Source: Candidatus Gastranaerophilales bacterium
GTDB lineage: Bacteria > Cyanobacteriota > Vampirovibrionia > Gastranaerophilales > Gastranaerophilaceae
Assembly (NCBI GenBank): GCA_944324315.1
Contig: CALUVW010000001.1
Span: 62,001 to 126,000 of the forward strand
Length of the DNA stretch: 64,000 bases
Direction of reading: 5' to 3'
Positions 1,297 to 29,031 of this stretch are shown piece by piece (the first letter of the stretch is position 1; every line of letters begins with the position of its first letter). Under the pieces are notes generated by a model, which did not search any database, was not told the DNA's origin, and saw only the letters and a program-made list of their open reading frames with translations. The position numbers were made by a program, and so were the translations under genes.

Positions 1297-1403
1297 ATTC
1301 AATGTAACAAAATATTAAAAATTCTAATATATCTCTAAAGAAAAAATTTTTTCTGTCGTAACACCTAAATGTATGTAGCCAGAGAAATTTAAAAGGAGTA
1401 TTT

Positions 1404-3279
1404 ATGGTAAAAGACATTAAAATGTTAGGTGCAAGGTTAGACAAAGAAAATATTAAATTGAGCAAGGAGTTGCCCCCCCCCCGACTGGTCAAAAGGCTGT
1501 CCTGAACGTATTTCAAGGCAAGTTGCCAATTACAGAAGATGTTAAAGATTTTCTTTCTTTATTTGATACAAAAAAAGACGGAATTATTGACGAAAAAGAA
1601 ATTATTACACTAAACAAAGTATTAAATGATCATGCCGGTAAAGACAAAGTTCTTGATAAGAATGAACTTTTACAAATATTTGGTCTTACACCGCAGTCAA
1701 AAAATGCAGATAAAATTTTTGAACAGTTTCAAACTGTTGTCCAAAGAGCTTCAAAATATTCTTCTCAAACCACAAAAACACTTGACCAAACAGGAAAGAA
1801 CACCGTACAGTAAACACATTTGAAGCAGATGGCAAAACTATAAAAACAAGCGAAAAAAGTTATTATAAAAGAGGCGCCCTGCATAAAGATTATTACGAAG
1901 GTGCAAATCTTCAAAACAGACTTAACTATTTACCATCTGAAAGAACAGTATATGAAGATGATGGAAAAAACATTAAACAGGTTATTAAAAACCAGTTTAA
2001 TGAAAACGGCATTTTAATAGGACGTGAAGAATACAACAAAGACGGAAAACTTGTTGATAAAAAAGATTTCTCCAAAGTCGACGGTCATTTTGATGCATCA
2101 TATCAGGGTGGAAGAGGCGACTGCTACCTTCTTGCTGCAATAAACAGTTTAAGTGAAACAGAAGCAGGAGAAAAACTTCTTCAGCAAAATGTCAAGGAAA
2201 ATAAGGACGGAACTTATACAATAAACTTTCCAGGAGTAGCAATCGCACGTAAAACTTTAATCAGCGGCGAAGGTGGTGCAAATGTCCCGACAAAAGACGG
2301 TAAAAAATTGAAAAAACTTCCTGAAAATAAAGTCCATCTGACAGGAAATTATACAATAACACCAGAAGAACTTGAAGAAGCCTCAAAACTTGCAGGTAAA
2401 AAGTATTCCTCGGGAGATAAAGATGTTCTGCTTCTTGAACTGGCCTACGAAAAATACAGAGACGAAGTAATGGATACAATTGAGGATAACAATATAAAAC
2501 AAGAACAAACGCTCTATATAGCAGGACTTGATATGGGCTCCCAAACTGATAAAGGCGACTATTTAAGTGGTGGCGGATGCGACTCTGCAATATTTATACT
2601 GACAGGCAAACAAGCTGAGGCATATAATGTAAGCTCTAAAAATAAACCTGTATGCTACGTCGATTCCGACTTTAACATGCATGTACCGGATGAAAATAAC
2701 ATTATAAATAAAAAAGCAATGGCTGTGCACACAACTGTAGACGGAGCAGGAAGAAATGATAATCTGGATAAACTTCTTGATAAATTACGCCAAGACTCAA
2801 AAGACGGTAAAGTTGATAACTATGCAGCCACAGCAAGTTTTAAAGTTTCAAGTCAGGAAGTAAACGGTAAAATAATAGGAGGCGGCGGTCATGGACTTAG
2901 TGTTCTTAAAGTTACAGATGATACTGTAACCCTCTCAAATCCTTGGAGTCCGGAAGATCACATTGAAATGTCAATTGATGATTTCAAAAAATCATCATTC
3001 CACATGTCTTTAACAAAAGTAAACGAGAAATCAACAAATACGATAAATAAACCAAATTACACTATTCCAAAAGGTATGGGTTATACAACAATGATTAAAA
3101 ATGCATTAATAAAACAAGGAATTGAAGCAACAAAAGAAAATATTCAAAAAGCAAAAGCACAGTTTGAACAAGTAAATCCTGACGCAGTACACACATATAA
3201 CGGGAAAAAAGAAGCCTGGAAGGGTAATAAATTCCTTTATGTAAATGCGCAGGTATTTATACCAAACTTTAAATTATAA
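1404..3279 (+). pseudogene. EF-hand/calpain-like cysteine protease gene with two frameshifts
   Basis: ATG 1404 has an AAGGAG site but its frame stops at 1503-1505, after a run of ten C (1473-1482). Eleven or eight C would put it in frame with 1506-1810, which encodes an EF-hand loop (DTKKDGIIDEKE) and a weaker second one. A second shift near 1786-1811 is needed to enter the frame that then runs open to 3279. That part carries a calpain (C2) catalytic triad: Cys in QGGRGDCYLLAAI (codon 2122-2124), His in GGGGHGLSV (2890-2892) and Asn in SNPWS (2938-2940). The C-terminal 60 residues (GNKFLYVNAQVFIP) look LysM-like. No signal peptide is visible. Bacterial calpain-like proteases with calcium-binding motifs are known; the substrate is unknown. 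Either a recent pseudogene, a phase-variable gene caught off, or assembly errors. Confidence 0.75.
1473..1482 (+). repeat. Poly-C tract of ten inside the calpain-like gene
   Basis: Ten consecutive C bases in codons 24-27 of the frame that starts at 1404. Such a G/C run is very unlike the AT-rich surroundings. Only length 8 or 11 restores the reading frame, which is how simple-repeat contingency loci switch. An equally long run occurs at 28092-28101. Confidence 0.9.
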
Positions 3280-27987: not shown

Positions 27988-28111
27988 ATGATGAGTTTAA
28001 GTCTTGACAAATTCCGAAAAATCGTAAATAATAAATTTAGTTAAGAAGAAAAGGAGTTTGAAAATGAATAGAGAAGATGCTTTCAGGATTGCCCCCCCCC
28101 CGAAAAGTTAA
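27988..28111 (+). other. Two micro-ORFs, the second broken by a poly-C tract
   Basis: ATG 27988 (AAGGA upstream) encodes 18 residues to TAA 28044. ATG 28064 has a strong AAAAGGAG site and reads MNREDAFRIAPPPKS before a stop at 28109-28111; ten C (28092-28101) lie inside it. With eleven or eight C the frame runs on without a stop into the prepilin frame below, but through intergenic repeat sequence that does not look like protein. These may be leader peptides or remnants of a lost gene. Confidence 0.4.
28092..28101 (+). repeat. Second poly-C tract of ten
   Basis: Ten C in the context TTG-C10-GA, the same length and the same immediate flanks as the run at 1473-1482. See findings for the competing explanations. 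Confidence 0.85.
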
Positions 28112-28161
28112 GTATAATCACATTTTTCAGAAATTTTAGAAATTATTTTTGTTTTAATATC

Positions 28162-28239
28162 TTCCTTCCCTTTTTAGGGAAGGATAAGAGGATGGGAACA
28201 AATCCATACCCACCCCGACCCTCCCTAATAAGGGAGGGT
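28162..28239. repeat. Intergenic hairpin repeats; the second sequesters the prepilin ribosome-binding site
   Basis: CTTCCCTTTTTAGGGAAG and the perfect ACCCTCCCT-AATA-AGGGAGGGT (28218-28239). The right arm GGGAGGG is also the Shine-Dalgarno of the ATG at 28243. A related C/G-rich repeat is at 44459-44495. Confidence 0.6.
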
Positions 28240-28242
28240 GGT

Positions 28243-29031
28243 ATGCTTATAGACACCTCTGGGAATATTCGTCGACCCGCTTTTACTCTGGCAGAAGTTC
28301 TCATCACCCTGGGTATAATCGGTGTCGTTGCGGCGATGACGATGCCTGTAATTATTACGAATTATCAAAAAAGTCAAACTGTCAACCGTTTAAAAAAAGC
28401 ATATTCTGAGATAAGTCAGGCTATCAGAATGGCTGAAAATGAATATGGAACTCTGGATTCATGGGATTTTTCTTATATCACAGAGCCACAGGAAAAAGTT
28501 AACTATTTTGCAGAAAACTATTTGTTCCCTAACATAAAAACTCTAAAACGCTGTTCTCCTTCATCAGACGAATGCTGGGCAGATACATACACTATAGACG
28601 GAAATGAAAGTTATCTAATGCTTGAAGATACGACAGGCAGAAATTCATTTATTGCAGCATCAGGATACTCGGTATTTTACTGGCTTCATGGGGCAAACGG
28701 CGCAGGTGACGGCGGCTGGTTCTGGATTGATATAAACGGATTACAAAAACCAAACAAAATAGGTAAAGATGTTTTTCCGTTTCTGATGAGCTGGGGACCA
28801 CATCCTCAGGGAAATTATGATTGTCAGGAAAGAAAATTAGGCCTATTTCCTGCAGGCCTTGAATGTAAGTCATCCTCATTTAGTTATGATGAACTAATTA
28901 ACGGCTCTGGTTCAAGTGATACAGCAGGATTTAATTGTAAAAAAGGTTCAAACGGATCAAGAGCCGGCGGTTATTGCGGAGCACTTATTATGTACGAAGG
29001 ATGGAAAATCGGGAAAGATTATCCGTGGTAA
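28243..29031 (+). CDS. Type IV prepilin-like protein
   Basis: 262 residues from ATG 28243, chosen because GGGAGGG lies just upstream and it leaves a normal-length leader (MLIDTSGNIRRPA) before the cleavage site A/FTLAEVLITLGIIGVV; the longer frame from 28192 would run through a repeat. A hydrophobic helix, KKAYSEISQAI and a Cys-containing head with WFWIDINGLQKPNKIGKDVF follow, as in the prepilin at 10752 (VDINGKQPP). Expected to be processed by a prepilin peptidase and assembled in a pilus or pseudopilus. Ends at a terminator. Confidence 0.83.
   Translation: MLIDTSGNIRRPAFTLAEVLITLGIIGVVAAMTMPVIITNYQKSQTVNRLKKAYSEISQAIRMAENEYGTLDSWDFSYITEPQEKVNYFAENYLFPNIKTLKRCSPSSDECWADTYTIDGNESYLMLEDTTGRNSFIAASGYSVFYWLHGANGAGDGGWFWIDINGLQKPNKIGKDVFPFLMSWGPHPQGNYDCQERKLGLFPAGLECKSSSFSYDELINGSGSSDTAGFNCKKGSNGSRAGGYCGALIMYEGWKIGKDYPW

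Follow-up and report, generated by a model that had tools for sequence, protein, structure and literature searches.

The run of ten cytosines (C10) early in a calpain-like gene of a Candidatus Gastranaerophilales bacterium is probably (at a rough probability of 0.77) one of about 100 frame switches at the DNA level, that is, simple-sequence contingency loci, whose default setting is OFF. We infer slippage as the cause, together with switching within the population, expression of the switched genes and a lottery of surface structures. The earlier note on this DNA had seen in the run the classical design of a contingency locus. That view was supported by 97 C10 runs across the genome, by reading frames that depend on tract length and by the surface and pilus genes concerned, on a far larger scale and with the readable length being C11 rather than C10. 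A contingency locus isolated in one protease was rejected, since the tract occurs genome-wide. Homopolymeric contingency loci are themselves well known; what is new here are the number of loci, the motif in their flanks, the strand lock and the rule that the default is OFF.

The calpain-like gene of the window

The analyzed stretch of 64,000 nucleotides (the window) contained two C10 runs. Its overlapping C7 matches numbered 8 versus a shuffle mean of 0.85, a count reached in 0 of 100 shuffles. All features given below lie on the plus strand. As the earlier note had described, a good start and ribosome-binding site stood before the first run: a Shine-Dalgarno-like AAGGAG (1393..1398) was followed by an ATG (1404-1406), by a pre-tract reading frame of 23 codons (1404..1472, MVKDIKMLGARLDKENIKLSKEL) and then by the C10 tract (1473..1482, flank ...AGTTG-C10-GA). 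Its account of the frames was also confirmed. As assembled, the frame from the ATG closed soon after the tract, at a TGA (1503-1505), and one extra base in the tract (C11) linked it to an EF-hand-like frame (1483..1813, stop at 1811-1813). A second shift near 1786-1811 was present in this assembly, which left the EF-hand frame separate from the calpain-like catalytic frame (1786..3279, 497 aa). No change in tract length repaired this second lesion.

The window gene matched EF-hand_1 with an E value of 0.001 and Peptidase_C2 with one of 4.6e-4, both under the Pfam cut-offs. The score for Peptidase_C2 (PF00648) was 19.8 bits in the window gene and 20.0 bits in the orthologue of another species (L062) versus a curated cut-off of 23.8. 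Because the score fell below the cut-off in both species, calpain is a resemblance only, and calpain-like is the furthest label that we allow. What the gene shares with calpain family C2 is the weak profile match and a plausible Cys/His/Asn set, namely Cys 2122-2124 in GDCYLL, His 2890-2892 in GHGLSVL and Asn 2938-2940 in NPWS, which we take to be the candidate catalytic triad. An AlphaFold model of the region built from two sequences was poor (mean pLDDT 44.5), and a PDB sequence search with the calpain-like protein gave no meaningful match.

The L062 orthologue carried C10 at the matching site, with the identical shift and with differing flanks, A instead of G preceding the run. Between the two copies, dN/dS was 0.18 for the pre-tract part, 0.35 for the EF-hand part and 0.19 for the catalytic part; in the same comparison it was 0.03-0.04 for neighboring genes, which from their sequences we presume to encode a HIT protein and a spermidine synthase. 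These values (0.18-0.35) suggest purifying selection on all three parts, so that the calpain-like gene would have been kept by selection while bearing C10, and they are compatible with a recent loss in the window lineage. About 0.39 kb of the L062 orthologue was missing from the window copy by blastn, in the zone of the second shift (1780..1813), and this shift was not found in L062. Because of these two differences the window copy may be partly decayed, newly damaged or mis-assembled. Decay or assembly error, which the earlier note had proposed for the second shift, thus gained support there. Extended to the whole gene, the proposal that it is simply a pseudogene is a serious candidate but an unlikely one. 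The missing segment and the second shift favor it, and the dN/dS values, the same C10 in L062 and the genome-wide rule described below argue against it. Decay fails as an explanation of the tract and may still account for the second shift. The earlier note had also counted equally broken orthologues against phase variation. L062 is literally broken in the same way at the tract; this does not overturn phase variation, because C10 is the OFF length throughout the genus and the gene appears to be under purifying selection. In the next-nearest homologues (37-46% identity), no run was found in the stretches fetched.

C10 runs are abundant in the genus and narrow in length

The window genome (G000) comprised 1,878,673 bases in 49 contigs and was 99.5% complete. 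Its 97 exact C10 runs, counted on both strands, compare with about 0.06 expected from base composition. Across the 33 genus genomes, the window genome included, exact C10 runs ranged from 0 to 169 per genome (median 44), with at least one in 29 of the 33. Outside the genus, C10 occurred in 8 of 25 genomes, with a maximum of 14. Prepilins were numerous in some of these genomes, with 125 N_methyl matches in the window genome and at least 150 in G026, and the C10-free genomes tested had few (18 in G013 and 10 in G027). Among IMG/VR viral contigs, motif-flanked runs numbered 0 for C10, 1 for C11 and 13 for C9, which we regard as background.

Lengths were concentrated at ten. In the 33 genus genomes the ratio of exact C9, C10 and C11 runs was 148:1621:150, so that C10 made up 1621 of 1919. 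The narrowness of this peak does not prove that the tracts are stable, because metagenome assemblies report the commonest allele and so sharpen peaks. The tight hold at ten nevertheless counts against a plain contingency switch. So does MutS1, which was found in 32 of the 33 genus genomes, the window genome included, and which should lower slippage. The very high rates of Campylobacter jejuni go with missing mismatch repair, according to the portion of PMC4235727 that was available; loss of mismatch repair was not supported as the cause here, given how widespread MutS1 is. The sole genus genome without a full-length MutS1 match was G013 (92% complete), which is also one of the C10-free genomes named above.

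An assembly artefact, in which real tracts of 11 were assembled as 10, is extremely improbable. Poly-C/G tracts with a length of at least 8 are known to interrupt Illumina assemblies, as the accessible part of PMC4235727 states, and several tracts lay at contig ends. Against this, C9 and C11 runs were assembled in the same genomes and fitted the frame rule, and C10 was present in nearly all genomes of the genus. Several runs came to about 100 bases or less from a contig end, namely C19:34407, C25:20720, C27:12, C31:13836 and C38:21 (contig:position) in the window genome, and one on contig C71 and C72:45 in G021; such positions fit expectation if repeats or mixtures of lengths break assemblies. 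On contig C2 of the window genome (94036-109934), two pairs of tract loci had an equal spacing of 11,033 bp, and the members of one pair did not differ over 810 bp. This pattern suggests either a direct duplication of 11 kb or a repeat introduced in assembly.

Tract length decides the reading frame

The C10 runs typically lay 20-90 nt 3' of a start codon, mostly in type IV prepilin genes. The second run of the window was of this kind: a pre-tract frame (28064..28091, MNREDAFRI) led into the tract (28092..28101, flank ATTG-C10-GA), and the leader and prepilin body behind it (28102..29031, RRPAFTLAEVLITLGIIGVV) became readable only when one base was added to the tract. In the window genome, the sequence around 95 of its 97 C10 runs was read (all except the contig-end loci C27:12 and C38:21), as was that around part of its C8, C9 and C11 runs. 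A C10 locus was called assignable when the run was entered from a Shine-Dalgarno-like start and was followed, in some frame, by a gene of at least 80 codons. Of 78 assignable loci, 72 needed +1 and 6 were in frame. A simple pattern found the prepilin motif in 67 of the 72. Of the 6 in-frame loci, 5 were non-prepilins, including a GT2 glycosyltransferase, and the remaining one was a prepilin whose start was ambiguous. The other C10 loci read were 4 short ORFs, all needing +1 and at least one of them truncated at the end of its contig, together with 13 that lacked an assignable start. In G026 and G007 together, 25 of 26 assigned C10 tracts needed +1 and 1 was in frame; one in-frame family was found in both species (L243 in the window genome, L160 in G026). 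In the window genome the tracts were entered in all three codon phases and in both coding senses, the coding strand of the 78 loci having C in 23 and G in 55.

A uniform shift at a fixed length could also arise from programmed frameshifting, in which the tract in the DNA is unchanged at ten and a one-base slip of RNA polymerase or of the ribosome gives low-level expression of all the genes. The uniform +1 at C10 in the window genome and two relatives, the tight length and the presence of MutS1 would all suit such a mechanism. It predicts +1 at any tract length, however, and was examined with 20 loci listed as C11 (from G025, G026, G028, G031 and G032) and 20 listed as C9 (from G001, G004, G009 and G028), all from sister genomes and with G on both flanks; these loci were a non-random subset of the listed places in eight genomes. 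Among the 20 C11 loci, 17 were in frame, 1 needed +2 and 2 were unassigned. The C9 tracts in the 20 fetched loci needed +2 in 17 cases and any other shift in none, with 4 unassigned. C9 thus needed +2 in 17 of 17 assigned tracts and C11 needed no shift in 17 of 18. The sense of the run in the mRNA was also mixed, as counted above, while the replication strand was constant. Programmed slippage was largely rejected on these two grounds, and we consider it very improbable. A G13 run beside a gap was consistent with 11 modulo 3.

The same rule was seen in the window genome, with exceptions. Seven of its C11 tracts were read: 3 were in frame (with two of these truncated where the contig ends), another 3 needed +2 (L251, L252 and L255), and the seventh had no start by our rule, yet was spanned by an open frame matching FrhB. 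Among its C9 runs, 2 needed +2, one (C3:89073) had no real gene across it, and L145 needed +1 and appears to carry T in place of the first G. The C11 tracts in frame and the C9 tracts needing +2 indicate that the length of the DNA tract decides the frame (9, 10 and 11 giving +2, +1 and +0), with the ON length apparently fixed at 11; L251, L252, L255 and L145 depart from this.

The C strand follows the replichore

In the window genome, adjacent C10 runs had the same C strand in 61 of 62 pairs, while no more than 28 of 47 pairs had their genes on the same strand. Of the listed runs, the first 100 in G026 gave one switch of the C strand in 95 pairs, and the first 50 in G007 gave two in 47 pairs. 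GC skew was determined in G007 from 20 samples of 20 kb. In all 7 samples that contained a tract, its C strand coincided with the C-rich strand, and the skew changed sign in the same gaps as the tracts flipped, clearly at about 300-320 kb of contig C1 and less clearly at about 560-640 kb of contig C2. GC skew was used in place of dnaA, which sits away from the orientation switches and was rejected as an origin marker. Leading strands are usually G-rich, and the G10 strand was therefore taken as the leading strand. The C strand of the tract follows the replichore and not the gene. Homologous prepilins carried C10 in the window genome and G10 in G007 (C33:8278 and L171, 48% identity; contig C11, position 33517, and L232, 39% identity), as expected if the run must follow the replichore rather than the gene.

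The flanks on the C strand were alike in coding-C, coding-G and unrelated genes, with the motif RAATYG-C10-GA and often AGCT about 12 nt upstream. The motif was weaker in unrelated genes. Among the 27 C10 runs not called prepilin, which include some prepilins missed by the pattern or by a contig end, the immediate flanks were G|GA in 24, G|GC in 2 and A|TG in 1. These flanks raise the possibility that the run is part of a sequence-specific element, placed or maintained, and reset in length, by a dedicated enzyme, for example one acting at the fork in repair or in single-strand transposition. The alikeness of the flanks across gene classes, the high share of G|GA outside called prepilins, the strand lock and the set point of 10 are in its favor. 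The weaker motif in unrelated genes and the A before the L062 tract argue against it, as does the fact that no enzyme was identified and no empty site was found. Overall we hold this origin to be improbable. A cassette of fixed length inserted into intact genes could likewise produce a uniform +1, and no empty site for one was found among the sequences compared.

The proposed switch and its relation to known systems

In the length switch that we favor, each tract separates the start codon of a surface or pilus gene from the body of that gene. Eleven bases, or 11 modulo 3, bring the body into frame in the prepilins and the calpain-like gene. The usual length of 10 and the next shorter of 9 are both out of frame, so that the default would be OFF and most prepilins would be silent in most cells. 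In a minority of cells, slipped-strand replication errors would lengthen the tract to 11, and a cell with 11 would express the gene until the tract slipped back. At 11, translation of the prepilin would begin far upstream of its motif and give it a long leader, and with about 100 loci each cell would display a small set of prepilins of its own. The tract is kept in one orientation to replication, with C10 in genes on the lagging strand and G10 in genes on the leading strand; because of the strand lock, we read this orientation as pointing to a switch at DNA replication. Plain slippage leaves unexplained why ON is 11, never 9 or 10, in the prepilins and why the mode is 10 despite MutS1. A fuller proposal would be a genus-wide, replication-polarized lottery, in which RAATYG-C10-GA is strand-locked and actively held at ten, about 100 prepilins are one base short, and replication-linked +1 events switch on a few per cell. 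We put this forward tentatively and regard it as rather unlikely. If it were true, plain slippage would not suffice, and both the set point of the length and the strand lock would call for a dedicated mechanism. The strand lock and the fixed ten offer a testable link from replication polarity to the mutability of the tract.

The poly-G/poly-C loci of C. jejuni and Neisseria resemble the tracts described here in three respects: the genome is AT-rich and its surface genes carry a homopolymeric G/C run near their beginning, the length of the run sets the frame, and glycosyltransferases are among the targets. C. jejuni NCTC11168 has 29 poly-G/poly-C contingency loci with tracts of 7 or more, as given in the accessible part of PMC4965091. 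In contrast to the C. jejuni and Neisseria loci, there are about 100 loci here, and one relative has as many as 169 exact C10 runs. The lengths are concentrated at 10, nearly all prepilins have 11 as their ON length, the C strand is bound to the replichore, the flanking sequence is conserved and the genome has MutS1. Among the systems compared here, this would be the largest homopolymer phase-variable gene set by a wide margin, in an uncultured gut lineage. Multi-locus phase-variable genomes are apparently restricted to pathogens, according to the portion of the review PMC11868660 available. The surface phase variation treated there includes ON/OFF switching of surface structures, pili among them, which resembles the switching that we propose; unlike those pathogens, the bacterium studied here belongs to an uncultured Gastranaerophilales lineage, and the tracts thus bear on the question of whether multi-locus phase variation is confined to pathogens. 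In the open-licence literature, we found no paper joining Gastranaerophilales or Vampirovibrionia with phase variation, and nothing on phase variation by homopolymers or simple sequence repeats in metagenome-assembled genomes or uncultured gut bacteria; the available portions of PMC4040986 and PMC5877343 held nothing on tracts. Automatic annotation would call about 100 genes per such genome broken, when they are probably switched off instead.

Leaders and other genes behind the tracts

The tract prepilins scored above the cut-off for N_methyl (PF07963) in the genome profile search and shared the motif of type IV prepilins, FTLAEVLITLGIIG, with A before F in 58 of 72 and G in 14 of 72. They differed from most tract-less prepilins, with a leader of mostly 6 residues, in having 7-168 residues after the tract. 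In the leaders between tract and motif (for example at C5:17138, C7:64288 and C8:46912 of the window genome), the peptides VILNLFQDL, FLPLLGKDKRMG and SLIREG recurred; they resemble translated intergenic repeat elements, and the frame through them is nonetheless open. Other carriers of C10 and C11 runs in the window genome were genes for GT2 glycosyltransferases and a gene for an FrhB/FdhB-like protein (L144, L151, L132, L139 and L253), some of them in frame at C10.
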